This document shows, piece by piece, positions 44,700 through 64,000 of a stretch of 64,000 nucleotides of DNA. The notes under the pieces are model-generated. The model saw only the letters and a program-made list of their open reading frames with translations. It had not been told where the DNA came from and searched no databases. How positions within the stretch are numbered: the first letter of the stretch is position 1; each line of letters opens with the position of its first letter. The DNA is from Salminus brasiliensis (lineage: Eukaryota; Chordata; Actinopteri; Characiformes; Bryconidae), in contig NC_132878.1 in the NCBI RefSeq assembly GCF_030463535.1, forward strand, positions 35,466,261 to 35,530,260. Reading direction: 5' to 3'. Position numbers and translations under genes: made by a program.

Positions 44700-46559
44700 A
44701 TGTTTTCTGGAATGAGCCTGAGACTAGTTTCTGTGCTCTGCTTCACCTTCTTCAGCTGGGTAAGTTTGTTTTATGCTCTCTGCCATGTCTCAGTAAAGTG
44801 TAATAATAAGAACATGACCAGCCTGCTGCTGTAAGGCTATGTACATCTGGAACTACAGTAATCACATGGACTACACTAAGAATACTGATGTCCTGTAGGC
44901 AGCATCTAAATGAATGAATGAAGGTAGAAGCTGTTAAACTTACTAAGAAGTTTCCTTTCCTGATTCCTTTCTCAGGTGGTAGCTCAGGAGTGCAATGGCC
45001 AGTGCCAGTGCCCCGATGTGCCCCCACAGTGTGCTCCGGGTGTAAGCCTAGTGCCGGATGCCTGTGGATGCTGCAGGGTGTGTGCCAAGCAGCTGGGAGA
45101 GCTGTGCACGGAGAGAGATGTTTGCGACCCTCACAAAGGCCTCTTCTGTGACTACGGTTCCCCGAGCAACCGTCGCATTGGTGTCTGCACTGGTAAGCTT
45201 GAGAGGCCTCAGTCACACATAATATAGCTGATGATCCTCAGAACCGTTAGACAACATGCTTCCACTGCATAACACAGTTCCTCAGAGGTAACCTGTCTAC
45301 TTGCTCTGTTCCCTATAGCCAGAGATGGTGCCACCTGTGTGTTTGGAGGAATGGTGTACCGCAGTGGCGAGTCATTCCAGAGCAGCTGCAAATACCAGTG
45401 CACTTGTCTGGATGGAGCAGTTGGCTGCGTCCCCCTCTGTGGGATGGATGTCCGGCTGCCCAGCCCAGACTGCCCTGCTCCCCGAAGGGTCAAGGTGCCA
45501 GGAAAGTGCTGCGAGGAGTGGGTCTGCGACTCGCCACAAACCACAAACACCTTTGTGGGCTCTGCTCTTGCAGGTAAGAAGCAAAACAGTGCTCATTGAC
45601 AAGCAATTCATCTCAGTGCTCATTGTCAAGTAACTTTAATGAATTATTAAGAAGCCACTAATAGGTCAGGTACAGTTTTTCTGTATCTGCCAATGGTGAT
45701 GCATCAGTGACGTCACTGCACTACACTGACTAATGTCTTGCTCTGTTTTGGTTTCAGCTTACAGAGAGGAAGAGACCTATGGCCCAGATCTTTCCATGAT
45801 GCGTGAGAACTGCCTGGTCCAGACCACAGAGTGGAGCGCCTGCTCAAAGACCTGTGGCCTGGGAATCTCCACTCGTGTCACCAATGACAACCGAGAGTGC
45901 CGTCTGGAGAAGCAGTCTCGTCTCTGCATGGTGCGCCCCTGCGAGTCCCACCTGGAAGAGAGAATCAGGGTAAGCATCAACCATGTCATGTCATTTTTAT
46001 CTGCTGCATCAGTGGTCACCAACCTTCCTTTCGGAGTTCTACCTTAAGTTTGACCTCTGGTCCAAAATCTCACACACCTGATCCACCTAATCCAACACTT
46101 CCGATGACCATGTTAAGTTAGATCAAATGTAGTAGAGGTAAACTCTACAAGATGGTATATCTCCAGGAATTGAGTTGATGACCACAGCACTGCACTGCCC
46201 AGTCCCTTCAGCCACATTAAAAGGAACATGTTGTCTAAACCCATGTCTGTTTTCTTTTACAGAAAGGAAAGAAGTGCATCCGCACCCCAAGAGTCTCCAA
46301 GCCCATGAAGTTCGAGATCTCGGGCTGCACCACCACCAAGGCCTACCGGCCCAAGTTTTGCGGCGTTTGCACAGATGGCCGCTGCTGCACCCCCCACCGG
46401 ACCGCCACTCTGCCCATGGAGTTCAAGTGCCCCGATGGCCAGGTTATGAAGAAGCAGATGATGTTCATCAAGACCTGCGCATGCCACTACAACTGCCCCG
46501 GTGAGAATGACATCTTCGAGTCTATGTACTACAAGAAGATGCTCGGCGACATGGCATGA
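44700..46559 (+). CDS. ccn2: CCN2 / connective tissue growth factor, 5 coding exons
   Basis: Secreted matricellular protein that binds integrins, heparan sulfate and growth factors in the extracellular matrix. Coding exons: 44700-44759, 44976-45192, 45319-45573, 45758-45969, 46263-46559; all introns are GT-AG (216, 126, 184 and 293 bp) and the frame closes to 346 residues (mammalian CCN2 has 349). Exon 1 is the signal peptide (cleavage likely after VVA, residue 23). Exon 2 is the IGFBP domain with CGCCRVC. Exon 3 is VWC, residues about 93-177. Exon 4 is TSP1 with WSACSKTCG, residues 178-248. Exon 5 is the C-terminal cystine knot, ending [10 protein letters not shown], which separates CCN2 from CCN1. 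One domain per exon is the CCN family pattern. No defect is seen. Teleosts can have two ccn2 copies; I cannot tell a from b. Confidence 0.97.
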
Positions 46560-47052
46560 GGGGGAGGATCGGAGGAATAGAAGGAAAATCTGTCCAATGA
46601 CTGTCCATTTCAAACAGATATCCATCTCATATCTCAGCACAGTACTCTGTCTATTTCCTTTTGGTTTTGTTCTTTTCAATTTACACATCTTCTTTTGTGT
46701 TGTATATGTGTTTTGTATCACTCAGAACTGTTTTAATGTACGCTTGGTGGATATCTGGGGCTCTTTTTTGCCCTAAAGTAAGTGAGTGAGTGTGGGTTGC
46801 GGGTGGGCAGGAGGGAGGGAGGGTGGGATTAAACGACAGGGCGTTTAATGCTGATGCCCCTAAAATAATACTGCACTATAGCCTGACTTGGTGGCGCCCC
46901 TTGTCACTGATTGGCCTGACAACGCTGAGGCCCCTTCCCTAAACTGTGGTGGGCAAATCCAGACTTGGAGAGCAAGAGTGGTGAAAGGTGAGGAGGGCGG
47001 CGGCTTTTTAACCTTGGAACGGAGGCCAAAACGCCTCACCCAACTGAGAGAA

Positions 47053-47054
<2 letters not shown>

Positions 47055-47084
<30 letters not shown>
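47055..47084. repeat. (GA)n microsatellite in ccn2 3' UTR
   Basis: About 15 GA units within the predicted 3' UTR of ccn2. Confidence 0.9.
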
Positions 47085-47452
47085 CAAGAATGTGCTCTTG
47101 TATGTAGTTAACTGTGTGTCTCAATGCTGAGCAGGAGGCCAAATCCTAGGCTTCAGATGTTAGGGCACTGAGAGTACCAACTGACTGACACCTTTGTCCA
47201 AAAAAAAAAAAAGACTGGATGATTTGCAGCTCATTCCTTTGTGTGTGTTTTTGTAACACTGTAGATAATGTACATATTTTGTACAGTTTAAGTTAATTTA
47301 AGTTTAAGTCTGTTAAGTCTGTTATGTCTGTTTTTTACTACGTGTTATGATGATAGCCCGTTTTGCTGACTTGACTGTTCTTGTTACAGTTTGTGTACTA
47401 TTTTATTGAGAAGTGTGACCAAAAAGTTACGTTTTGAACTTTTGTAGTTTGG

Positions 47453-47458
47453 AATAAA
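47453..47458 (+). terminator. ccn2: ccn2 polyadenylation signal
   Basis: AATAAA, followed by AT-rich sequence and then a T/GT-rich stretch (TTGTAAGTTCTG, then TTTTTTTATTTTG) suited to cleavage-factor binding. It is the first good signal after the stop codon. Confidence 0.8.
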
Positions 47459-47480
47459 ATATTATATTTTTTATATAAAT

Positions 47481-47696
47481 CTTGTAAGTTCTGATTCCTT
47501 TTTTTATTTTGCTCCTTGTGGCAGCGTTCCACATAGGAAATACATACCAATTATAGCTCCGTGTTTTTCACCACACAGTTTTATACCTCCTTGGTGGACC
47601 ACACAGCTGCATTGTGCTCTGCATTGCTTCCGAGACCACACACATTCAAATCATTCATGGCAGACATTCATAAGCCATATTCATTTGTAGAATAGA

Positions 47697-47727
<31 letters not shown>

Positions 47728-49808
47728 TGTACAGCCACTGTATAACACACTCATTGCACACTCACTGCAAACCCACACACGTGTGTGTATTAACAGAAAC
47801 ACTGATACACATACACATGCTATATTAAATAGTGGTCTGACACTGAAAGTGCTAAGAAAAGGCCCAGGCCAGCAATACATTTGCACAGGAGCCAGACAGA
47901 CAGCAGACAAACATTCACACACCAGTCATGTTTGTGAGGAAGCAAAGGCATAGACTTCAGGTTTGTGTGTGGATGTGTGTGGCAGAAATAGTACAAAGCA
48001 ATTTTATGATGCATCCAGTCAGTAAAGAGGAAAGAAAGAAGCTGCACACTCAGGTTTTTATTAGACATGGGAAGCATGCATTTATTGACCAGCTAATGTA
48101 ACACATTTTCACATTCTCATTTCGCAGCACCAAACACAGGCCAGTTTTGTGGCCTACAATGTGGGGTCCCTTGTAACATTTGGGGACATTTCACCAAAGG
48201 CTCTGCTCCAAAACTTTTCTGCAATGATTTGTATTACAGTTATTAATTTATTAGAGCCCCTCTCATCTGTAGGGCCAGAAGAACCATAGAAAGTCACTGC
48301 TAATTCAAATTAGTGTGAACTTTTAACTATTGTGAAACAAAATAATACAAACCCACATATCAAGCTTTAGGCACACTTTTAAAGAAGGATTGTATGCACT
48401 TAGTGACGATCCTTATATTAAGATTAAAGGTCTTCTATGAGTGCTGTTAGAAGTGTGCTTATTTGTCAGTGAAACTACATACAAGCCATTATGACTGATA
48501 TTTATGTTACAACTGATGTGAAACCTGTTCCTCAAGTCATTAAATATTGCTTTTCCATTTCAGTTAGTGAATCCAGGGCACATTACCTGAAGCCCAAAGT
48601 GTTCCACTCAAGCGCAACATATTGCCTGAGACATGACTACCCTCTGGTGTACACTTATGCCATTAGTCATTATTCCAGTATATTTCAGCTTCAGAAATGT
48701 GTATGAGCAAAGATGACGTTGTTTTGATCTGAATATATCTTCTCAGAGGTGCTGGCAGACTGGCTGATCACAAAGCAGTATAAAAAGTGATGTAAAGTTA
48801 GCAGCTAAGGGTCATTTTTAGTGTCAAGAGCAAAATTAGTTTGGGAATTTTTTTGTAATATAAAATAATAATAAAGACATTTTATTAATAAAATCCATTT
48901 AAAGGATTATAACAATATAAATATGAATGGTATAATCTTACCACATTATTACAGGAGTGATATCAAGCTGTTAGGCAAGAATGTCCTGTTAAGCTGACAA
49001 AGATGGACATTAATGGTTTCTAAGCTTGCTTTTGAGCTTTATATTACCCTCCCATGTTCCCTTGCTTTGGTATAGACTGTGCCTGTCTAGTCTCCTTCTC
49101 ATGGATCAATCAGGTTTAGCACATGGCCAAACCTTTTACATTTGTGTTTACTAACACAGGTCAAACCACTGCCATGTCACTCATCTCAATGCACTTTTCA
49201 GACTCAGCTCATGCCAAACTAACTGGCTTTAGTGTTGTTAGCAAAGTCTCTGTGATATTTCAGTTCTTAATGTGTGTTTGGCTTGCCTTTCTAGGTTTTG
49301 ATATGCCCATTGTTTTCTTGAGTTATGAATGTTCCTTGTGTTTATTCGCCTTTACGACCCTGCCTGTCTTGTTCATGTGCCTTGGAGATGCCACAAAAAA
49401 GTTACTTCGTGATTGCATTTCCCCTTACAGACAAATTTGATACAGAAGACTTCGCTGTCCAAGGTTGCAGTGAGTGACAAGGACCACAAGCCTGTCTCCA
49501 CACCACCGGTGCTTCCTCTGTAGGGACCGTGAGGAGGGTACTAAAAGTAACCTTCATAATAATGTTAGCATGTGGGCCAGTCTTAAACTGAAGAAGTTAG
49601 ACAGCGGAGCTCTGAACTCTTTCATTGAGTTCTCACTCCTCCTTCATCCCCATGGAGAAAAAATAAGGATCCCCAAGAGAAAATTGGGGAAAGGCTGTTT
49701 CATTTTCTATCAACAGTCAGAGAGCCAGCAGGAGTGTACACAGCTCCTCTTAGTACCTAGGAGAACTCTGTGGAGACAGACATTGTTGCCCTTACCAGAG
49801 CTGAAAAG
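47481..49808. other. intergenic DNA downstream of ccn2
   Basis: Non-coding. A (CA)n microsatellite lies at about 47,700-47,728. Open frames at 49,123-49,440 and 49,474-49,863 have no recognised domain and no splice partners; I treat them as chance. Confidence 0.4.
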
Positions 49809-49810
49809 TA

Positions 49811-51308
49811 CACTGCTCAAAAAAATAACACTCAAATATCACATCCTAGATCTGAATGAATGAAATAGTCTCATTGAATACTTTGTTCTGTACAAAGTTG
49901 AATGTGCTGACAACAAAATCACACAAAAATCATCAATGGAAATCAAATTTATTAACCAATGGAGGCCTGGATTTGGAGTCACACACAAAATTAAAGTGGA
50001 AAAACACACTACAGGCTGATCCAACTTTGATGTAATGTCCTTAAAACAAGTCAAAATGAGGCTCAGTATTGTGTGTGGCCTCCACATGCCTGTATGACCT
50101 CCCTACAATGTCTGGGCATGCTCCTGATGAGGATCTCCTCTCAGACCTGGACTAAAGCATCTGCAAAACTCCTGGACAGTCTGTGGTGCAACGTGACGTT
50201 GGTGGTTGGAGTGAGACATGATGTCCCAGATGTGCTCAATCGGATTCAGGTCTGGGGAACGGGCGGGCCAGTCCACAGCTTCAATGCCTTCATCTTGCAG
50301 GAACTGCTGACACACTCCAGCCACATGAGGTCTAGCATTGTCCTGCATTAGGAGGAACCCAGGGCCAACTGCACCAGCATATGGTCTCACAAGGGGTCTG
50401 AGGATCTCATCTTGGTACCTAATAGCAGGCAGGCTACCTCTGGCGAGCACATGGAGGGCTGTGCGGCCCTCCAAAGAAATGCCACCCCACACCATTACTG
50501 ACCCACTGTCAAACCGGTCATGCTGAAGGATGTTGCAGGCAGCAGATTGCTCTCCACAGCATCTCCAGACTCTGTCACGTTTGTCACATGTGCTCAGTGT
50601 GAACCTGCTTTCATCTGTGAAGAGCACAGGGCACCAGTGGCAAATTTGCCAATCCTGGTGTTCTCTGGCAAATGCCAAGCGTCCTGCACAGTGTTGAGCT
50701 GTAAGCACAACCCCCATCTGTGGACGTCGGGCCCTCATACCATCCAACATGGAGTTTCTAACCGTTTGTGCAGACACCTGCTGGAGGTCATTTTGCAGGG
50801 CTCTGGCAGTGCTCCTCCTGTTCCTCTCTTTGCACAAAGGCAGAGATAGCGGTCTTGCTGCTGAGTTGTTGCCCTCCTATGGCCTCCTCCACGTCTCCTG
50901 GTGTACTGACAGACACAGCAAACCTTCTTGCCACAGCTCGCATTGATGTGCCATCCTGGATGAGCTGCACTACCTGAGACACAGAGTTTGGGTTGTAGAG
51001 TCCGTCTCATGCTACCACGAGTGTGAAAGCACCACCAACATTCAAAAGTGATCAAAACATCAGCCAGAAGGCATAGGTACTGAGAAGTGGTCTGTGGTCC
51101 CCACCTGCAGAACCACTCCTTTATTGAGTGTGTCTTGCTAATTGCCAATAATTTCCACCTGTTGTCTATTCCATTTGCCCAACAGCATGTGAAATTTATT
51201 GCCAATCAGTGTTGCTTCCTAAGTGGACAGTTTGATTTCACAGAAGTTTGATTTACTTGGAGTTATATTATGTTGTTTAAGTGTTCCCTTTATTTTTTTT
51301 GAGCTGTG
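49811..51308 (-). mobile_element. Tc1-like (DD34E) transposon, nearly full length, inactive
   Basis: Flanked by the TA target duplication (49,809-49,810 and 51,309-51,310). The right end, read inward, is CACAGCTCAAAAAAAATAAA followed by GGGAACAC. The left end is CACTGCTCAAAAAAATAA and lacks the GGGAACAC part. The transposase is on the - strand and is broken in several places. Length is about 1.5 kb, standard for the family. It sits between ccn2 and the - strand gene, about 0.5 kb beyond that gene's stop codon. Confidence 0.92.
50058..51002 (-). pseudogene. Tc1-like transposase, frameshifted
   Basis: The helix-turn-helix part ([20 protein letters not shown]) is in one frame at about 50,890-50,982. 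The [20 protein letters not shown] linker is in a second frame, and a third frame (50,103-50,837) carries the catalytic core: Asp in LFTDESRF, Asp in LMQDNARPHVA and Glu in SPDLNPIEHIWD, with 34 residues between the last two (DD34E). A deletion removed the end of the first DNA-binding domain, and another change near 50,170 shifts the C-terminus. The catalytic triad is intact, but no single frame encodes the enzyme. Confidence 0.88.
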
Positions 51309-51824
51309 TATATCTATGGCAATAGCCATAGATGCTTTAATATGCCTATTAAATGTGACACACTCTATTCTTAATTACAAATTAACAGATTTCTCATTTT
51401 CAGTATGTTTTATTCAAGAAATATTACAGAACTTTTACAGGCGTATTACAATCAAACATGCATCATGCATAGTATCTGAACTTAATTATTATTATTTTTT
51501 ATTTAAAATGTATATTTTCTAAATATTTAACATTTGTAAAAAAAAATAAATAATAATAAAATAAAATAAAATTGGTATGTAAAATATTTCCTGCAGTATA
51601 AAAAGTATTATGTCTTTACTATACTGCAAAAAACACATTAAAATATTTTTAAACAAAAGGTTGTATTACATCAGCCTATTAATTTTAAAATACCATTTTA
51701 AAAGAACATTTAAAAGGTAAGAAGGAAAAAATAATAAGCATAATAAAAAAAAAATCAACAACAAAACAAATACAAAATAGTTAAGATGTCTCCAAGAGAT
51801 ATATGCATGGATTGTAATTTGCCT

Positions 51825-54800
51825 TTAATCATTTTTAACTCTCATTGGCACTTGATGAACCCTCCTTATGGGGCTGTTAAAAGGCCTTGTTCCAGGAACA
51901 GAACTTCCTTCCTCAGGAACTCCAAAAGGTACTGATATGAAAAATAATTACAATAAAAAACATTAATATTAAACATAGCAGAGTAACATCAGAAAATGAT
52001 GATACTGTTTCACTTTCTAGAGATTTCTAATTGTACATACCTTCCTCATTAACATATTCATGCTTGGTTATGTTGACATATCCCGCCAAATAGATCACAT
52101 ATTCATTTGTGAAATCTGCATGCTCAATGGGGAAGACAACAAAAGGTGGCTTCTCTGGGTTGTTGTCATACAGGTACCATCTACCCTCTAGTTGGAAGCA
52201 TCCAACCATATGGTTTACTGACTCATTCTTCTTACACAGCAGCAAGAACTGAAGCTCGAAGGTCCTGAGAAAGCAGCAGGGAAAAGGAGACCAACATCTT
52301 CATAGCTTTATAAAACATGTTGGCAACACTTAAACACTACCTGCTAATTTTGTCTGCAGTACTTACCTATCATATTTGTCTGTAATAGAAAGTGGAGGAG
52401 CTGTGTCTTTACGGCCATCAACATTCACAAGGGCACAGCAGGGATCTACATAGTTCAGCCCTAGCAGCTTCACATCACCCAAGCATTCCAATTCACTACA
52501 AAAAAAGATACAAAAAGATAAAAAAAATAATAGCCAACAACCCATTCCGTAATTAAAGTCTACATGGTGCTGCATGGTCCATCATGATAGATTCATTCCA
52601 TGCACTCTACAGCACAAGGAAAAGCATTTGTTAAGGCTGTTAAGAAAGTCTAAAAGTGATAATAATGCCTGCACTATGCCACCAGAGGTCCTCCTTTCCA
52701 AAGTTCCACACCTCATCATGAGTAAACTCTCCTGCTCCTCATTGCAGGCTACTGCACCCTATCAGAGGACTGTGAAACCCCTTACTTATTGAGAAATCAG
52801 GCCTATGACTTTGTCACTTGCATTTCTGAGCCCATGTTTTGTGCCTTATGATGTTCAGGTTTTTTAGCTTTGCAGCCTTTGTGTTTTGATTAATTACTCT
52901 TAGACTTCTCTATAATACACAGCACACAAGAAAATTAATCATTGTAGGTGACTTCTATCATTACACAAGTTAAGTCTGGAAGTTCTAACCGGTGGGTGAG
53001 CCTGCCTTTGTATTTTAACACATTTAATGTAACTGCAGAAAGGTCTTACAATAAATAAATGTAAAATGTCAGTTATAGAGATGTTACAATTTAAGAAATA
53101 GTATTTTTAGTAATATTAGTAGTATTTAATAGGAATGTTCTCATGTATCATGCTAACATCTACATTGAATTTAAGATTAGGAAAAATACACTTTAGCACA
53201 TGTTTTGTGCTTAATGCATCAAATACTGTAGATGAAAATATCATGGTTGATATTTCATGGTGCTCAGAGGAAAACAGTTAGCTAGGTACCAAAACTTAAA
53301 TTTTCTTGAGCTGGTGTTTCCCTTTTTTGTCTGAAATAATTTCAATTACATGTTTCCTTTAATGGAATGTTTTGGGTCATTATCATGTTGCATGGTCCAC
53401 CTCTGCCATATTGTCTAGGTGTTCTCAAACTCATACAGTCTTTCTGTTTGTAGAAGTAGTACTTTAACATGAACTTTAGCAAGAGCTACCCATACATCAT
53501 ATGATGACCTGATCATGTTGGCAGATGTATTACTCATAAATTACTAGACTAGACAGTGGCTAAATTGTTCTGACATTTTTTTAAATCTATAATCTAAATC
53601 AAACTAAATGTCTGAGGTTTAAATAAGTCAGGCTCCTCCAGAATTCCCTTTAATGATGCTCTAATCATCTGTAGCTGATGTGCTGAACCTGATTCTAATT
53701 TTAGGCATTTTAACTAGTAAATGTGGGCACGTCCTCACAAGAACTGTATTCATATTAATAATATTTGACAAATGATTTCTCAGTTTTGTGTGTTTAGTCA
53801 CATTACCTCTATCTCTCAATACTGTTAAAATGAATAGCACATGTTTAAATAAGATTAAATACTTTAAAAAAAGAAAAATTGTCACTTCTCATTAATATTT
53901 ACTTTATACTATTTACTTTATTGCTATAAAACATACTTTATTTTAGCAATCAGGACACGACAACTGTAAATATGGAAGATACATTGGGAAACATTTACCT
54001 TATTGTGCTTTGGTGCAGTTCATCAAAGATTTGAGGGCTCAGTCTGTCTTCATCAAAATGGTAATTGGCACATACCAGATCATTAAATATAGGTAAGTGA
54101 TCTCCTACTTCACTCCAGACATTGACCTCATCAACCATATTAAATCTACAACTATCTGATAACAAGTTTAACTGAATTAGCCAGAGAGCTTTAGCTTTGT
54201 TATACTGTCCTGTACAGAGAAAGGTCATAACTGCAATGATTGTACGGTCACTTCTAAAAATTTGCACAATCAAATAATTTTGAATGTAACAGTTAAGAAG
54301 AACAACTAGAAAAGAATCAAGGACACATGTGTTTATAAACTGATATTGGCCATAGTAGCCACCAGCTTTCACAGAGCTTCTGCAAACATCAGGGATCAAC
54401 ATCTGTAGCTCATCATGGCTGCAAGAGAGTTAAAAAAAAGTGTTAAGCATTTAACATTAAAAGTGTTGAATACAATTACATGTTGTCACAAAGCAGCTTT
54501 TCAAAATCAGTAATTTAGTTAAAAAGCAAGAAAACAACAACATAAGACATAAATGCCTAAGACCCCCGGTGAGCAAGCCAAATGCAAACTATTACCAATA
54601 AACTCCAAAACGTCCTGGCACACATATCAGCAGTTATCTGTTCTATTGTGTTGGTCCTTACAATGCTACAATTTCTTTAATAAATAGCTGACTATGAACC
54701 ACTGACAGGCTAGTAGTGGCGGCCTAAATGTTACTGATTATTAATTAATTTAATGTTAGAGCTGGATACAGGTACTAGGCTGAGAGACAAAAGGTTCCAA

Positions 54801-56933
54801 CTGTGGCTGAACTAACTTGGCAGTGATGGCAACTAATACTAGTGTTAATCAAAACTGAGATTTCATTCTGCCCAGAAATACTAACTGATCAATACCAGAG
54901 ACCTACTCAAGATTTTAACAATCAAGCCACAACCATGATGGTTCTTTTTTAACTGTAGTGAGAACTCCACAAGGTCAGTAAATATTGTACTTTGATTTTG
55001 AGTCAATCCTCTTTGAATGGCGCCCTGAGGCTCAGGTTTGCCAGGGGACGTAAAATCCACCCCTGCGTCTCCTACACCCCAGATACAGTAAAAGATTTTT
55101 ACTTCTTTGATTTGTGTATTAGGATTAGATGTGTCTGTTATATGTATCTATATCTATATGAAGGATTCACATTAATAAAAACATGCAACAGGTATGATTG
55201 AATAAGGAGGCACCTACAGTTTTAACTGAACATATGTAACTCCCATTGCAAATTAGGTTTAGTAGTTAGCAACATTTGCAAGCTCCCAGCTGTTTACATT
55301 AAACCAATCAAACCCCCAGCGGCCACCAGATTCTTGAGAAAAAAGACTGCAGAAGACCTGCAGCAAGATTTGGTGGCCACAGGCAATGAGGTTTCGGTTA
55401 AGGTGCATACTAAACGCTGAACACCAAGAGATGTATCTCTACTGACCCAAAGATTCTGGAGTGGCGATCACAGTCACCTGAATTGAACTACATAAAAAAT
55501 CTTTGGTGGGAAGAAGGCTGTTGCAGCTTGCAAACCCAAGGATATTAGTAAACTGAAGACCACCGAATAAGAGAAATGGGTTAAGAATCTACAGGAACAC
55601 TGCCAGGAGCTGATGTCAGGCTGTGAATCACTTTTACAGCAGGTCAGAACAGCAAAAGGGTGCTCTACTAAGTACCAAGTAAATACTAAAGTAAGTACTA
55701 AAGACACTTGTCATGAAGGGGTTAAATAGTTGTTCTATTAGTTGTGTTCAACTATTTAAACTTGTCTTGTTTGATTGGTTTATTGCAAATAAAAAGGCCC
55801 ACAAAAAGGTCCATATGCAGTAAAAGGCCCATATCAAAAATACTGCAAAGTTCACCACAGATTAAAAACACGCAAAGCTTTACCACAAGCTGACAAGCTG
55901 GCTCACTGGCCAATATTCTCACTCTAACCACATTCAGACTTTCCATATAATACTGTAATATATATTTAAATAAAGTCAGACCTGGTATCATTAACAGAGA
56001 TGGCTTCACCAGTACTTAAAAACACTCATTAACAGAATATAATGCATAAGTAAATATAATGCACAAGTAAATATAATGGATCAAAATCATACCTTTCAAT
56101 ATAAGCAGCCTCTGTGTGAAAAAGAAATGGAAGAAATTGTTTCAGATGATAAGTTTGAAGTAAAAACCTAAAATGTCTTAAAACTTAAAAACAGGTATAT
56201 ACCTTCCATTAGTTTCTCATATTCCTGCTTTAGTCTAGAGATGTACCCTGGTTCGTGACTGCAAGAAAAATAAATCTGTCACCAGTCATTTTATTTGATT
56301 TGATTCAGCAACAATCCCACCCACAATCAACACTAAGCAACACATTTCTAGAAATGCTACGCTCAAAAGTGCTAACATGGCTATGATGGCTAAGGCTAGC
56401 ATGAGTTAGCATAGCATGAGTTAGCATAATTCAGGTTTCAAAATCCAGAAATCATGAAAAAGACATTTTGTCCATGCAGCATAGGTTGGAACTGCTAAAC
56501 AACACTTTTGGATTTGTCCTTTGTGGAAAAAATCAACAGAATTTTAGATTTTGGATTATATCCTGAGTGCATCCTCAGTGTAAACGGTGATAAATGACAA
56601 AAATTAAAAGAAGTTTCATTACCTTGCTCTTATCTGACAGCTACTCAATGTGAAACTACATTCTTACTTATACTTTCATTACCATAACTTGGCGAACAGG
56701 TGGGATGCTTTGTTGTTCATGTTAGAATGCTTTGATCTTTATTGCAGATTGGATCAAGTTTCTGTTGACTCTTCTAGTCACCAGAAACTAAAACACTTAA
56801 AACAGTTAAAACACTTAATTAAAACACTTAAAACACTTAAAATACTTAACTAAAACACGATTCCAAGCTATTTTTTTTTTTTACTTTTAGTCAAGAACAT
56901 GGGGTTGACTTACCTTGCCATTGTACGTGCCAT
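51825..56933 (-). CDS. uncharacterised USP-like (papain-fold) cysteine peptidase candidate, 7 exons
   Basis: Not recognised as a named gene. Coding exons on the - strand: 56933-56914, 56258-56203, 56111-56093, 54418-53999, 52495-52367, 52264-52041, 51931-51825. Every intron is GT-AG, phases match throughout and the frame runs 324 residues to TAA. An in-frame TAG lies upstream and no earlier in-frame ATG follows it, so ATG 56,933 is the start. Residues 60-69 (INTCVLDSFL) resemble the Cys box of ubiquitin-specific proteases. Residues 217-250 (TFELQFLLL, then H233, then GRWYLYDN) resemble their YELxAVxxH-GHY-WYxFDD region. The candidate triad is Cys63-His233-Asp248/Asn249. The Cys-His distance (170) is shorter than in most USPs and no CxxC zinc-finger pairs are seen. 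There is no signal peptide or membrane segment, so it is probably intracellular. Family assignment is by motif only. Confidence 0.72.
53270..53700. repeat. decayed transposon fragment in an intron
   Basis: In the intron between exons 4 and 5 of the - strand gene. GGGTCATTATCATGTTGCATGG-type wording and TAATTTCAATTACATGTTTC match common fish DNA-transposon internal sequence as I remember it. No intact frame. Confidence 0.35.
54480..54620. repeat. dispersed fish repeat (GTGAGCAAGCCA type)
   Basis: Contains CACAAAGCAGCTTTTCAAAA followed by CCCCCGGTGAGCAAGCCAAA, the wording of an abundant fish interspersed repeat. A second copy is at 59,990-60,125. It lies inside the intron between exons 3 and 4 of the - strand gene. 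Confidence 0.55.
55310..55725 (+). mobile_element. Tc1-like relic in an intron
   Basis: One + frame near 55,455-55,510 reads LEWRSQSPELNYIKNLWWE, a decayed form of the LxWPSQSPDLNPIENLWW block containing the third catalytic residue. It is followed by stops. The end ACTTGTCATGAAGGGGTTAA is typical of the same elements. Orientation is opposite to the host gene. Confidence 0.7.
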
Positions 56934-57010
56934 CAGTGTCTTTCTCAAAATGGCGACTGTCTCTTTCTTCTAGATGTTTCCATGACGTTTACATGGCGGT
57001 TAATGGGCGT
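56934..57010 (-). promoter_or_regulatory. likely promoter/5' UTR of the - strand gene
   Basis: AAAATGGCGAC (56,947-56,957) and ACATGGCGGT (56,991-57,000) fit the YY1 consensus AANATGGCGG, a hallmark of TATA-less housekeeping promoters near the start site. The segment is locally richer in CpG than the surrounding AT-rich DNA. The start of transcription is inferred. Confidence 0.45.
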
Positions 57011-57895
57011 TGTGTTTTGTGCATGATTTAAACAGCAGGTAATTACACAAATGTGGATGTTCGTACAGCCGCCCACACTTGCAGGACGTTAATAGGGGAT
57101 TTTCTCTGCAACTTCAAAACACAAAGCCATCCTGTTTATTCACCTCCACTTGTTGCACAGTTTACTGTTAGTTTAGGTGAATGTCTTTTCACAGAGCAGT
57201 ACCATTTTTTCTCTCTTTCTCTTCTCTACACAGAAAACAATGAATGAAATAGCAGAAATTATAATGTAATCTACTAAACTCAACAGGAAACCTCAGAAAC
57301 CTAACATGGTATCATTGGTTTCACCGCTGCTTGGCACTACTGCAAGATCTATACACGTCACTGCAACCACATGCAAGTCTGGCGAGCTACTACATCTCAG
57401 CTATAGCACAATCAGGATATCTCAAGCTCCTTTCTGTTGAGTGAAATCCCTGATTGAGTGGGAAATCATTTTCTTCACACCAGTCAAAGTGACGCTCAGA
57501 TTTCTTCACTTTTGTTAAAATTTTTCACTATACCCATCTTGGGCCTTATAGTATTTGACAACATTTGACAACAGTGATATTGAGTTTAAATCTACAGGAC
57601 CTACATCTGTAAACAGGGCTGGGCACTGCAGCTGAAGAAGCACATTTAATTATCATCAGACTTTTGATTGAAATTCCTGTCCATATATGTGGTGTTTGTA
57701 ACATGGCAGACCTACATGTGCCATGTATGTCTTCATTTGACCCCATAGTCCACTGAAAGTGTCAGTAAACAAATCCACACTGATCTGTTGTCAGTGTCCA
57801 ATCACAGGTACAGTCTCTTCCATTTTGATTGGCCTAAATCGGCTTTAGCTCCACCTTGTCTCAGGTGACTTATAACCTTTACCTTTAACATGCTT
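57011..57895. other. gene-free DNA
   Basis: Non-coding. No repeats or frames of note are recognised. Confidence 0.4.
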
Positions 57896-58255
57896 GTCTA
57901 TAATTTTCTTTCCAATCTCCTGAGACAACTCTTTCCTTCGCTTTCTCTGGTCCATGTTGAGTGTGGTACACACCATGTCACCAAGCAGCACAGTGACCTG
58001 TAGCCCTATATATAGGCCCACTGACTGATTACAAGATTGTAGACACCTGTGATTCTAATTAGTGGACACACCTTGATTTAACATGTCCCTTTAGTCACAT
58101 TAGTTTCATATGGTTCAAAATCAATGTCATATTTTTATTTGTTCATTATTATAGCATTATTACTTTTGTCAGATTCAAGTTATTTCTGTGGCCATTGTGG
58201 GCTTTTCTTTCATTAATTGAGGGTTACCAACAATTTTGGTCTAACAGTGTTTCAA
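57895..58255. mobile_element. DNA-transposon relic
   Basis: GTAGACACCTGTGATTCTAA, ATTAGTGGACACACCTTGAT and the end GAGGGTTACCAACAATTTTG follow the order of a fish DNA transposon I remember, with a terminus of GTACCAACAATTTTGTCC type. It is non-coding here. Confidence 0.5.
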
Positions 58256-58654
58256 TCTATTGTTTTGACCACTTCCCATTCATTCCCATTCACTCCTAGT
58301 CATTTAATTGAGTTGAGCCACTTAATTAAAAGAATGAAACTGCACTGACACTGATATATAGGCATGAAGAGGAAGAGAGTCAAACTCTGCAGCAGAACCG
58401 ATGCGTATCTCTATTTCAGCTAGAGGTATGACAACAGAGAGGCAAACAAGTGGCACTCTGTTTACTCATCTGCCATCTTTGCAATGCCTATCTTGCAGTC
58501 ATTTCTGACCAGAAGCCACCTCTATGAATGGAGAGAGACCAAAATACTAAAAACAGAAGGTCAGATTTAAATCACGTATACAATCTGACAGAGAACTCAT
58601 GAATAGTTTTGAGCGGTTGGCTCACAAATGCACAAAAAATATATATTTATTTGG

Positions 58655-58745
58655 CTTAAGATCACGTCACGTGACTTTTATTGTCACTCCATCTGAGTAC
58701 AAGTACACAGTGGAGTGAAATTCTGTTCCTTCAGGACTATGTACA
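58655..58745. repeat. dispersed repeat fragment (TTTTATTGTCAC type)
   Basis: CACGTGACTTTTATTGTCAC followed by ACAGTGGAGTGAAATTCTG is common fish interspersed wording, probably the end of a non-LTR element. It includes the palindrome GTCACGTGAC (58,666-58,675). Confidence 0.45.
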
Positions 58746-58864
58746 TTCTCTGAGAATTCTACCGGGTATTCTATCCTGGGGCTTTTTGTGGGTATGTAAG
58801 GTGCTATGACATAGCTATATGCAGTCAGCTTAGACATAAAGCAGAAAACAGGCCTAATGTATCA

Positions 58865-59195
58865 AGCCCTTAGCAACACTTTAACTACCTATCACTATTA
58901 CCTAAGTAACCAACAGCTATTCCATTTCCCAGCAACACCTTAATAAGAACTCAACAACACTTAAGTAACCCATACTTCTACCATAAAGACATTTTAGCAA
59001 CCACAGAGCAACACCTTAGCAACCACCTAGCAACACTTTAGCAACAAACACCAATACCATAGCAAGCACTTAGCAACACTTTAGCAACTGCCTAGCAACA
59101 CCTAAGCAACCAACAGCTATTCCATTCCCTAGCATCCACTTAGTGACACCTTAGCAACCAACTCCTATACCATAACAGCACTTTAGCAATCTACA
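58865..59195 (+). repeat. degenerate GCAACA minisatellite
   Basis: About 15 imperfect repeats of TTAGCAACACYTTAGCAACC-like units, interleaved with ACCAACAGCTATTCCATT and TACCATA variants. It is the same motif family, on the other strand, as 37,430-37,690. Confidence 0.8.
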
Positions 59196-59985
59196 CCTAC
59201 TACTATCTACTTATAGTAGATAGTACTGATAGTAGATCTAGTGTTTTCAATCTGTTTTAATGAACAGCAGTACCAGAAGAACTGGTGGAATTGCCCAAGC
59301 GTATAGAAGTCATGGTAATCTCTGATTTAAATTTTGTATGTCCAAGTGTTAAATTGTACATCTGACATTCTGTATAAGCAATTCAGACTAAGACTAAGAT
59401 TTATTGTCACTGATTTTATAGCTGATATTTCACATAATTTACAGACTTCCAAAAATGTGTTACATACAATAATTGTCTTTTATAGATTTATATATAAGAC
59501 AAAGCATAAAAAGCTGGAATTACTAGACAAAGCTGGAATTACTTTCCAGATTAAAAGAACAGACAGGTGAATACTCAGGCAAAAACCTGTATGGTACTTT
59601 CTGCTGTACAGAAGAAGAAAAAAGGAAAGGAAAATCTTAAGGAAGTCAATGTGAAAATCATTTATTCCAAGTTGTTTTGAAATATTCTTATTGGTCTAAT
59701 AATCACAACCAAAAATCACAGTGCTGTCATCGCTATCACAGATTACAGATATCACACATATCTTAATCACAGAAAATTGTGACTACATTACAAGGCATTA
59801 CTGCATTTATTTTAATACAGTAAATTACAAATGGTAAAATAATTGAATACTGTAAAATGACAAAACTGTTTTGTCACAAAAAAATCATTAGGCACTTGTT
59901 TGTTGAAAAAGCATTTGTTTGTTGAAAAAGCACTTGTTTGTTCATTTATTTTTCATATTTACAATAAAAAACACAAAGCATGAAT
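59196..59985. other. gene-free DNA
   Basis: AT-rich. A short imperfect inverted repeat TACTATCTAC...GTAGATAGTA lies at 59,209-59,227, and a repeated ACTTGTTTGTTGAAAAAGCA phrase at about 59,895-59,940. Confidence 0.45.
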
Positions 59986-59989
59986 AAAC

Positions 59990-60125
59990 ACTTCACACCT
60001 TCTGATATGGGCCCCATTGAGCAAGCCAAAGGCAACAGTGGCAAGGAAAAACTCCCCCACACTGAATGAGGAAGAAACCTTGAGAGGAACCAAGACTCGA
60101 GTGGGGCAACCCATCCTCCTCTGGT
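59990..60125. repeat. dispersed fish repeat (GGCAAGGAAAAACTCC type)
   Basis: GAGCAAGCCAAAGGCAACAG, GTGGCAAGGAAAAACTCCC and CCTTGAGAGGAACCAAGACT form the core of a very abundant fish interspersed repeat. Same family as 54,480-54,620. Confidence 0.6.
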
Positions 60126-60177
60126 TAAATCTAATCACAGTTTATTTGTACACAGTACAACTATTAGTGAAATGTTT

Positions 60178-60295
60178 TCCAAAATAAATAAATACATAAA
60201 TACATAAATAAATAATAAATACACAAATAAATAATAAATACATAGACAATAAATAAATACACAAACAATAAATAAATAAATAGAATACAATAACA
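60178..60295. repeat. (AAATA)n-rich simple repeat
   Basis: Imperfect AAATAAATA/CATA array. The - strand frame across it (YLFIVYVFIIYL-like) is a repeat translation. Confidence 0.85.
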
Positions 60296-60470
60296 GAAGT
60301 ACAAATATAGAGAAAGGAATAACAGTATATTTATATCAAATGTTACAAATAACAAGAGTTCTTCTCCAGTCAGCACCTCTACGTCAGGAAGGCACGGTGG
60401 CAGATTCATGTAGTCAACTCTGGGGCAGTGACAGAAAAAACAAAACATTCTTTAACATGGAACATACAGC

Positions 60471-61144
60471 CAGGTGAAAACATCAGGACACCCTACTTTT
60501 ATTTCACATTATATTTACACATATGAACATTTTATCGTTACTTGAACAATATTGAGAGATGGAGGTAATACAACTAAACAACTACACATAAATCTGAAAA
60601 AACATTTGTAAAATCATATGTAAAATATAATGAATAGATTTAATTGAATTATCTATTATATCATGTTTTATGAGAAAAACATTAAGACACCACCACATTT
60701 ATTAATATTTCAAAGGCCTAAAATTAGAATCAGCTGCAGATGAGTAGAACATCATAGCTGGTTTGCTCTTGATTGGTAAAGTGAGTGTTATTACCATGAC
60801 GAGGTCCACAGAGCTCTCTAAGCACTTCAGAAAGAACGTGGAAGAAGATGAATATGAGTCTGGAAAAGTATTTAAAAAGGTCTCAGAACCCTAGGATGGC
60901 CTGACCTGGCCATGTTGCCAGTTCCATGTTCCACTTGTAAATTGGGAGTGGGACACCAGTGGGAGACCACACTCGACTCCCAGCAACCATCAGCCTAATT
61001 GAGGTCAGCTGGGTAGCGCCGGGTAATGACTAATGACACAGCTCATTCATCACAGAGTCTTGTGTTTTGTCCTCAGAAACCAGACCTTGCCAGTAACCGG
61101 TATTATTTGAAGCAGTAATAAAAGTGGGGGTGTCTTAATGTTTT
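60471..61144 (+). mobile_element. non-autonomous Tc1-like transposon
   Basis: Inverted ends: GGTGAAAACATCAGGACACC...ACTTTTATT on the left and the complement of GGAAAACATTAAGACACCCC...ACTTTTATT on the right. Near 60,797-60,890 the + strand encodes MTRSTELSKHFRKN...YESGKVFKKVS, the first helix-turn-helix of a Tc1-type transposase. The catalytic part is replaced by about 190 bp of unrelated sequence (60,892-61,080). It cannot make transposase. Confidence 0.75.
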
Positions 61145-61184
61145 CCTTTCGGTCATTTATATTTTGTCAAACATGCTTGGAGGA

Positions 61185-61985
61185 AAGTGCCGGGTTTCTA
61201 GCTCCACTGCAACAGCTAACAGACATCTGTGCCAGCCTCCATAGCTTCAACATTGTACAACATCGGGAGAGTAACTTGGTCCTGCAGATTTCTCCTGTAC
61301 AACATCCAAAGAATTCGACCCTTCCTCTCCAGAGAGGCTGCCCAGATGCTCATTCAGTCTCTCGTCACTTCAAGACTTGACTACTGCAACTCTCTTCTGG
61401 CTGGTCTCTCTTTACGCACCATCAGGCCCCTGCAACTCATCCAGAATGCAGCGGCATTCGTCGTCTTCAACTTTCCTAAATTCAGCCATGTCACTCCACT
61501 GCTGTGTTCTCTCCACTGGCTTCCTGTAGCTGCCCGCATCAGATTCAAAACCCTGACTCTGGCCTACAAAGCCCAGAAAGGACCAGCCCCTACGTACTTG
61601 ATGGCAATGGTCAAAAGCCGATCCGCACCAAGAGCCCTTCGAGCTTCAATTACAGCTCGGCTCGACCCGCCATCCCTCAAAATCCACGGAAGACAAGTGT
61701 CCAAACTTTTTTCTGTCCTGGCACCAAAGTGGTGGAATGAACTTCCCCTGGGTGTAGCAGACTGAAGACCCACCACTTAAGAGAATACTTGGGCAAATAG
61801 CAAAATGGTCTCCTTATTGACTTGTGTTTAGTAGTGTCTAAACTTAGAGGTATCTTTAAATTATTAGCCTATTCAAACTAGCTGAGGTTTTACTTTTACT
61901 GAGGTAAATAGCAAAGCACTTTTGTAGGTCGCTGGTAAAAGGAAAAGAGCGTCTGCTAAATGCCGTAAATGTAAATGTAAATGTA
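61185..61985 (+). mobile_element. 5'-truncated L2-like LINE
   Basis: The 3' portion of a non-LTR retrotransposon. It ends GCGTCTGCTAAATGCCGTAA followed by repeated ATGTAA, the characteristic tail of fish L2-type LINEs. Only the end of the reverse transcriptase frame remains, so the copy was truncated at insertion. Its left end lies just after the non-autonomous transposon at 61,144. Confidence 0.85.
61229..61800 (+). pseudogene. L2-like reverse transcriptase, C-terminal fragment
   Basis: The frame to 61,765 contains SRLDYCNSLLAGL, IRPLQLIQNAAA and SLHWLPVAARIRFKTL, then PKWWNELP, all C-terminal landmarks of L2/CR1-type polyproteins after the catalytic core. The catalytic FADD region is absent (5' truncation). 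A stop at 61,763 comes just before the usual RRLKTHHL end, which continues in another frame. Confidence 0.85.
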
Positions 61986-63070
61986 AGTACACCCTCTACC
62001 TACCCAGGCCAATTGTCATCTCTCAGGGGCATGTTATCACATGACTGTAAATATAGTGCATTGTCACTCAATGTGGAATACTAATATAGAATGAATCTCT
62101 CAAATAAAGCCATACCTCAAAGTTACAGCCAGTTAAATGGCACATTCCCCTCCAACACATTTGAAATGTCATCACTGGTTACTTGACACAGACACAAAGG
62201 GTGTAGTGGGCACCAACTGCATGTAGGGAAGTCAGAGAATGGCTGTGATAGGGCAGAGATAAAGAGAAAATGTTGTTTAATAAATTAACAGACTGCTGAA
62301 CAGGTCTTCCTGTTGTATGGTCTGTTATATAGTGTTTTGCATTGTCTATTGTAGTGTTTTATATAGTGTTTTTTAATCTATTGACTGTATTTATTATATT
62401 TAATATCTGATTGTCTGTCTGCTCCTCTTTCATGTTAAATGTAGCACTATGTCCTGGAGTAACTACACCACTGCTTGTAGGGACATCACTGGCATGCTAG
62501 GGATAGGGCAGAAAAAGAGAAACAAAAAGTATATTAGGCAAAGGTATAAGTCATGCATAATCACAAAATATTTATTCTTAATTGCTGAGAGAATTTTGAG
62601 AGAATCTAATATGCTAATATTGAATCTGACAAGTTTATCACATCACAGTCATATTTGTCACAAAAGCAGGCTACCGGCTAATGCTGAACATGAGAAGATA
62701 AGCACCAAGCCTGACGCGTGAGAAATAAAATGAAATACAGTATTAATACACTTATTAATACTGTGGCTGCCACCTCAGAACCAATTGGGGGTTAGGTGCC
62801 TTGCTCAAGGGCCATGAGAAAACACTACTCTTTCACTTTCTGTCAGTCCTGGGAATTGAACCAATTTCTTTAACCTTTAGTTAATTTCTAATATGACAGT
62901 ACTGATCTCAGCTCTGGAAAAAGCCTAAACACAATCACTGGAGGACTGCATCAAGCCCAGTGACAAAAACACAAAACACAGTGTGAGTTTATTTTACTTT
63001 ATTTAAAAAGCCAGAGGAGGCAATCAACTGCAGTTGTCTGTCCTCCGCCTTTAACCCATGTGTGAAACAT
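61986..63070. other. gene-free DNA with dispersed repeat fragments
   Basis: 62,755-62,870 contains GTGCCTTGCTCAAGGGCCAT and GGGAATTGAACCAATT, the same wording as 4163-4300. 62,990-63,070 (CTCCGCCTTTAACCCATGTG) resembles another common fish repeat and leads directly into the 50-bp satellite. No gene evidence. Confidence 0.45.
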
Positions 63071-64000
63071 GGTTTTTACCATGGTGCAGTTCTGTGCTGC
63101 AAACACGGCGCTCTAGTGGAGGTTTTTACCGTGGTGCCGTTCTGTGCTGCAAACACGGCACTCTAGTGGAGGTTTTTACCATGGTGCCGTTCTGTGCTGC
63201 AAACATGGCGCTCTAGTGGAGGTTTTTACCGTGGTGCCGTTCTGTGCTGCAAACACGGCACTCTAGTGGAGGTTTTTACCGTGGTGCCGTTCTGTGCTGC
63301 AAACACGGCGCTCTAGTGGAGGTTTTTACCGTGGTGCCGTTCTGTGCTGCAAACACGGCACTCTAGTGGAGGTTTTTACCATGGTGCCGTTCTGTGCTGC
63401 AAACATGGCGCTCTAGTGGAGGTTTTTACCGTGGTGCCGTTCTGTGCTGCAAACACGGCACTCTAGTGGAGGTTTTTACCGTGGTGCCGTTCTGTGCTGC
63501 AAACACGGCGCTCTAGTGGAGGTTTTTACCGTGGTGCCGTTCTGTGCTGCAAACACGGCGCTCTAGTGGAGGTTTTTACCGTGGTGCCGTTCTGTGCTGC
63601 AAACACGGCACTCTAGTGGAGGTTTTTACCATGGTGCCGTTCTGTGCTGCAAACATGGCGCTCTAGTGGAGGTTTTTACCGTGGTGCCGTTCTGTGCTGC
63701 AAACACGGCACTCTAGTGGAGGTTTTTACCGTGGTGCCGTTCTGTGCTGCAAACACGGCGCTCTAGTGGAGGTTTTTACCGTGGTGCCGTTCTGTGCTGC
63801 AAACACGGCACTCTAGTGGAGGTTTTTACCGTGGTGCCGTTCTGTGCTGCAAACACGGCGCTCTAGTGGAGGTTTTTACCGTGGTGCCGTTCTGTGCTGC
63901 AAACACGGCGATCTAGTGGAGGTTTTCGTCGTGGTGCCGTTCTGTGCTGCAAACACGGCGCTCTAGTGGAGGTTTTTACCATGGTGCCGTTCTGTGCTGC
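63071..64000. repeat. 50-bp satellite array, at least 18.6 copies, open at right edge
   Basis: Units begin GGTTTTTACC at 63,071 and every 50 bp after that with no indels; the last is cut by the window end. Variation is limited to a few positions: ACCGTGG/ACCATGG, AACACGG/AACATGG and GGCG/GGCA. The variants recur in order (GGCA, ATGG-type, GGCA, GGCG), giving a 200-bp higher-order unit visible at 63,121-63,320, 63,321-63,520 and 63,571-63,770. There are no unique spacers, so it is not CRISPR-like. Confidence 0.97.

Follow-up and report, generated by a model that had tools for sequence, protein, structure and literature searches.

A 64,000-nucleotide stretch of the Salminus brasiliensis genome (NCBI RefSeq assembly GCF_030463535.1, contig NC_132878.1, positions 35,466,261 to 35,530,260; the whole of it is termed the window here) contains, on its minus strand between positions 51,825 and 56,933, a seven-exon gene with a predicted product of 324 residues. 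The gene, as far as its sequence indicates, is most likely a divergent and more compact member of the C14orf28 family, which has been described and is poorly understood. In the available parts of two reports, the human C14orf28 is a little-studied protein that has been placed only computationally with the deubiquitinases (PMC10318531, PMC9992864). Taken as a single claim, that this is an intact host gene, that its product belongs to the C14orf28/DRIP1 family and that the product has a papain-type fold is probable rather than firm, with enzymatic activity as the least certain step.

Gene model and comparison with shuffled DNA

The seven minus-strand exons, when joined, give 975 nucleotides that form one uninterrupted frame of 324 residues with a TAA stop, and all six introns are of the GT-AG type (Table 1). 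Cys63 lies within NTCVLDSFL (a box that begins at residue 61), His233 lies within VNHMVG, and GRWYLYDN provides Asp248 and Asn249. The preliminary description had proposed an intact protein with these residues, and all of them are found in place; of its seven GT-AG boundaries, the seven exons and the use of GT-AG throughout stand, but the introns number six. Skipping of exon 2, 3 or 6 leads to a premature stop (at codons 12, 33 and 221, respectively), whereas the frame survives the loss of exon 4 (140 residues, including Cys63) or of exon 5 (43 residues). Without exon 7, the frame stops soon past the exon 6 donor. Met5 is an alternative start with a better Kozak context and would yield a protein of 320 residues.

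The longest single stop-free frame in the region (144 codons, in exon 4) was equalled in 17 of 500 shuffles of positions 51300-57500 and is unremarkable, so the case for a gene depends on the exon chain. The chain was scored with a simple spliced-frame optimiser that uses general splice matrices, and each shuffle was scored as the best of both strands. The splice-site bits in Table 1 likewise come from general position matrices. On the minus strand of 51300-57500, the best spliced frame scored 35.4, while 200 dinucleotide shuffles reached at most 29.3; under stricter site thresholds the score was 30.7, and 60 shuffles reached at most 18.7. The exact seven-exon model scores 25.7, a value reached by 1 of 200 shuffles.

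As a yardstick from the window itself, ten 6200-base tiles of positions 1-62000 were scored on both strands, giving 20 values (62001-64000 was left out). The tile with a CCN-family gene scored 41.1 and the minus strand of tile 49601-55800, which contains exons 4-7, scored 44.5, while the other 18 values did not exceed 25.0. The 44.5 is inflated because the chain extends from exons 4-6 into a Tc1 transposase frame. When the segment 51300-55800, with exons 4-6 and without the Tc1 frame, was scored, the result was 29.7, still higher than the remaining 18 tile values.

The composition of the chain was compared at four optimiser penalties. Penalties of 4 and 4.5 kept exons 1, 4 (whole), 5 and 6, with a segment at 55477-55588 replacing exons 2 and 3; penalties of 2 and 3 kept exons 2 and 3, added further exons and used an earlier donor inside exon 4. 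At all four penalties, the last exon was 51499-51590 in place of exon 7. Support is strongest for exons 4-6, which encode the catalytic part, and exons 2, 3 and 7 depend on weak splice signals. By eye, the alternative exon at 55477-55588 falls in a Tc1-like stretch.

Two compositional features were also recorded. The GC content at the three codon positions (0.51/0.32/0.38) is consistent with coding DNA, and the ratio of observed to expected CpG is 0.89 at 56800-56999 (5 CpGs) compared to 0.29 for the whole window; both features are in keeping with a gene. The motif AAAATGGCGAC at the gene start, which we take to be that of YY1, occurred at least once somewhere in 13 of 100 window shuffles. We regard it as nearly certain that the gene is real.

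Relation to C14orf28/DRIP1

The encoded protein is probably a relative of C14orf28/DRIP1 (UniProt Q4W4Y0; Gm527 in the mouse), judging from the alignments described here. The C14orf28 reference sequence used here is unconfirmed, and all comparisons with it are conditional on its being correct. BLASTP matched two boxes in co-linear order, the Cys box at E 0.002 and the His box at E 0.012. An end-free global alignment of residues 1-252 with C14orf28 scored 77 (shuffle mean 32.1, z 4.45), a score equalled by 0 of 1000 shuffles, and residues 40-252 gave z 4.81 in the same mode (1 of 1000 shuffles). The residues paired between the query and C14orf28 are Cys63/Cys57, His233/His265, Trp244/Trp276, Tyr247/Tyr279 and Asp248/Asp280, and a MAFFT alignment (Met5 to residue 278) paired the same triad at 24% identity. 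In local mode, reversing either the query or C14orf28 gave a score of 34. Among 300000 shuffles of the query protein, both box patterns, which were written after the protein had been seen, occurred jointly in 2.

The two proteins are similar in length (324 residues in the query versus 310 in the reference sequence), in the Cys box NTCxxD[SG]FL and the His box HxxxxFQxxGxWxxYD, which align co-linearly, and in the spacing of 15 residues from His to Asp. They differ in that their identity is only about 24%, hence the query is no close orthologue, and in the distance from Cys to His, which is 170 residues in the query and 208 in C14orf28, a difference of 38 residues, the missing part being mainly ahead of the His box. 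The gene structures differ as well, with five exons in mouse Gm527, according to the available part of its description, versus seven in the query gene.

Several observations count against this relationship and against the fold that goes with it. The C14orf28 reference sequence was written out only after the query protein had been read, and is unconfirmed. The top BLASTP piece (PPFVV, E 3e-4) is out of order with respect to the boxes and was counted as chance, so that single pieces are weak evidence. The whole-protein alignments (z 8.0 local and 6.8 global, 0 of 1000 shuffles each) left the His boxes unpaired, and their z values overstate the similarity because they tracked this chance PPFVV match. 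The cut at residue 252 was chosen after the whole-protein alignments had missed the His box, and the local alignment of residues 1-252 with C14orf28 (score 53, 4 of 1000 shuffles) covers the Cys-box half and not the His box. Searches with the query at E up to 10 matched 0 Pfam families and 0 PDB sequences, under HMMER filters that drop most weak matches. Finally, a structure model of exon 4 alone had a predicted local distance difference test (pLDDT) score of 45.5, with strands at the expected position of the active-site helix, and a model of exon 6 alone had a low pLDDT of 53.2, with four strands as the core sheet would have; neither single-exon model was used as fold evidence.

Pfam contains no model matching the C14orf28 reference sequence either, which would explain its silence on the query. 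In the available part of one report, human C14orf28 has a newly recognised papain-like domain of the deubiquitinase type together with a second, fingers-like domain, and is assigned to deubiquitinase cluster IV (PMC10318531); in another, a figure legend sets the AlphaFold model of C14orf28 beside USP18 (PMC9992864). The best match of the query has already been likened to, or placed with, papain-like deubiquitinases in two papers from 2023, and the initial proposal of an undescribed family is not supported.

Predicted activity and alternative readings

The order Cys-His-Asp and the pattern around His233 and from Trp244 to Asp248 appear to fit a papain fold of the USP type. As the preliminary description had noted, the Cys box and the His box are unusually close for such a layout: the Cys-His distance of 170 compares to 208 in C14orf28, 220 in USPL1 and 281 in USP2, while the His-Asp distance of 15 compares to 15, 16 and 17, respectively. 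Its further point that a zinc-finger insertion is missing is borne out by the number of CxxC pairs, which is 0 in the query, as it is in the C14orf28 reference sequence.

A divergent, compact C14orf28/DRIP1 member with these features may act as a papain-fold cysteine isopeptidase (clan CA, USP-like). Cys63, on the first core helix, would be the nucleophile, His233 would activate it, and Asp248 (or Asn249) would orient His233, with an oxyanion hole possibly formed by Gln58 or nearby main-chain groups. The predicted reaction is hydrolysis of the peptide or isopeptide bond at the C terminus of ubiquitin or of a ubiquitin-like modifier. In USPs an insertion forms the fingers; since this insertion is shortened here and has no CxxC pairs, palm and thumb alone would grip the modifier, or a partner would assist. 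Since it is the triad that points to peptidase activity, we infer this activity, and we give about an even chance to the protein being an active peptidase on a ubiquitin-like modifier. A diverged relative of C14orf28 with the same triad would suggest that the family conserves catalysis, beyond binding, and the protein would offer a smaller construct for testing catalysis in the C14orf28 family. If the link to C14orf28 fails, an ordinary uncharacterised host gene remains. It is also conceivable, if doubtful, that the gene represents a separate unnamed subfamily beside C14orf28, one in which much of the insertion ahead of the His box is gone and which has its own modifier specificity; the product would then be among the smallest vertebrate isopeptidases of the USP type.

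A protein of the C14orf28 family could have the papain-like fold and yet no peptidase activity in vivo, serving instead in binding or trafficking, a role that has been proposed for C14orf28/Gm527 with the dopamine D1 receptor. In the available part of the study in mice, Gm527 binds the receptor, with which it co-precipitates, and lowers its surface level, the loss of Gm527 leading to more receptor at the surface, and no enzymatic activity is mentioned there (PMC10580352). The query Cys box is also unlike the USP form, with V and D in place of the F and N of USP2 and no Gly ahead of NTC. On the other hand, the Cys-His-Asp triad is complete, with a His-Asp spacing equal to that of the C14orf28 reference sequence, and in the available part of PMC10318531, where three new human members are listed as lacking a potential catalytic site, C14orf28 is not among them. 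We consider a purely non-enzymatic role unlikely, yet a genuine rival.

Less probable still, and indeed improbable, is that the protein is a USPL1-like (MEROPS C98) or USP-like (MEROPS C19) peptidase of another lineage, whose likeness to C14orf28 would be limited to the active-site motifs. The SUMO isopeptidase USPL1 shares with the query the order Cys-His-Asp, CxLD[CS]xL from the cysteine on, and NH[MF][VI]. Its triad of Cys236, His456 and Asp472, as given in the available part of PMC8983731, agrees with the spacings measured here, but its fingers hold a four-cysteine zinc site (PMC8983731), whereas the query has no CxxC pair. USPL1, first suggested as the closest relative by the C-x-L-D motif, was rejected, its end-free global alignment with residues 1-252 being no better than shuffles (z 0.24). 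USP2 resembles the query in the NTC of the Cys box and the W..[FY][DN] of the His box, and its local alignment with residues 1-252 is slightly raised (score 42, equalled by 65 of 1000 shuffles); the end-free global alignment, in contrast, gave z 0.01. USP2 differs further in its longer Cys-His distance, in its CxxC pairs and in the histidine motif, which is GHY in USP2 and NHM in the query. The Cys box GNTC[YF].N of the USP family, which is present in USP2, is replaced by INTCVLDS in the query. The Pfam models UCH (PF00443), UCH_1 (PF13423) and Peptidase_C98 (PF15499) gave no match to the query at E up to 10.

Genomic setting and database searches

It is very improbable that the gene derives from a protease which a transposon or virus brought into the genome, whether as a copy or as a recent remnant. 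Zebrafish Helitrons do bear active deubiquitinase domains (available part of PMC9741609), and the region includes sequence of the Tc1 type, in which a Tc1-like transposase frame is open. Against this reading, a tblastn search of the window with the protein found its own exons and no second copy (next best E 0.30); of 10 inverted pairs listed for 46800-64000, 0 flank the gene; the gene has six spliceosomal introns and a local CpG peak at its start; and no IMG/VR relative was confirmed. The tegument-like deubiquitinases (VTD) of herpesviruses and zebrafish Helitrons are papain-fold deubiquitinases that occur in fish genomes and have an invariant Asp-x-His motif, as far as the available part of the report goes (PMC9741609). 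In the query, by contrast, Asp comes 15 residues after His, and by eye no D-x-H motif is found among the 324 residues. With no second copy in the window, no flanking inverted pair among those listed and an ordinary multi-exon structure, the suggestion of a domesticated protease finds no support here. Second copies near 49416 and 59996, proposed from short inverted matches, were rejected on the same tblastn result, and no support was found for a KDZ/Zisupton transposon.

Searches of viral and prokaryotic collections say little about the query because it is an animal gene. The PHROGs search gave no usable match, and 74 phage records were matched with a best E of 3, judged as chance. Pattern matches in IMG/VR numbered 1 for the whole protein, 10 for exon 4, 64 for the two-row alignment and 5 for C14orf28, of which 0 were confirmed, and 0 of 13 pattern matches in GTDB genomes were confirmed. 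Rfam and tRNA searches on the window returned nothing usable. None of the available titles and abstracts about synteny, or about peptidases that are transposon-borne, from fish or ubiquitin-related, describes the gene. The protein did not match any known non-peptidase family with confidence, an outcome that the preliminary description had named as one that would speak against it.

Table 1. Positions within the window of the predicted exons, of candidate signals at the gene ends and of neighbouring features
Feature	Position	Strand	Remarks
Exon 1, coding part	56914..56933	-	ATG to donor AAG/GTAAGT, strong (7.6 bits); retained by optimiser at 4/4 penalties
Exon 2, residues ~7-25	56203..56258	-	Acceptor 3.7 bits, donor GTATAT -0.01 bits; retained at 2/4 penalties; tentative
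Exon 3, 19-nucleotide micro-exon	56093..56111	-	Required by the frame; retained at 2/4 penalties; tentative
Exon 4, Cys63 (NTCVLDSFL) and thumb-like region	53999..54418	-	Whole at 2/4 penalties, ended early at 2/4
Exon 5, region preceding His box	52367..52495	-	Retained at 4/4 penalties; acceptor weak (1.5 bits)
Exon 6, His box with His233 and Asp248 (VNHMVGCFQLEGRWYLYDNN)	52041..52264	-	Retained at 4/4 penalties
Exon 7, C-terminal tail and stop	51825..51931	-	Acceptor weak (-0.8 bits); chosen at 0/4 penalties; tentative
Possible AATAAA polyadenylation signal	51498..51503	-	~320 bases beyond stop; hexamer common in AT-rich DNA
YY1-like motif AAAATGGCGAC	56947..56957	+	Adjoins first exon; transcription may start in this region; 1 match in window (0.14 expected)
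CCN-family gene	45273-46556	+	VWC, TSP1_CCN and cystine-knot domains in three open reading frames (Pfam); possible synteny anchor
Tc1-like transposase frame	50103-50876 or 50106-50876	-	257 codons open; HTH and DDE_3 (Pfam); element by eye ~49813-51299
Degenerate array	58840-59180		AGCAACACCTTAGCAACCA-like units of ~11 and 22 bases
Open frame of 181 codons	61220-61765	+	No Pfam match
50-base tandem repeat array	62971-64000		Most copies 95-99% alike; runs off window end

Among the neighbouring features, the CCN-family gene is presumably CCN2/CTGF-like, and we take the 181-codon open frame to resemble the C-terminal part of a long interspersed nuclear element (LINE) reverse transcriptase.

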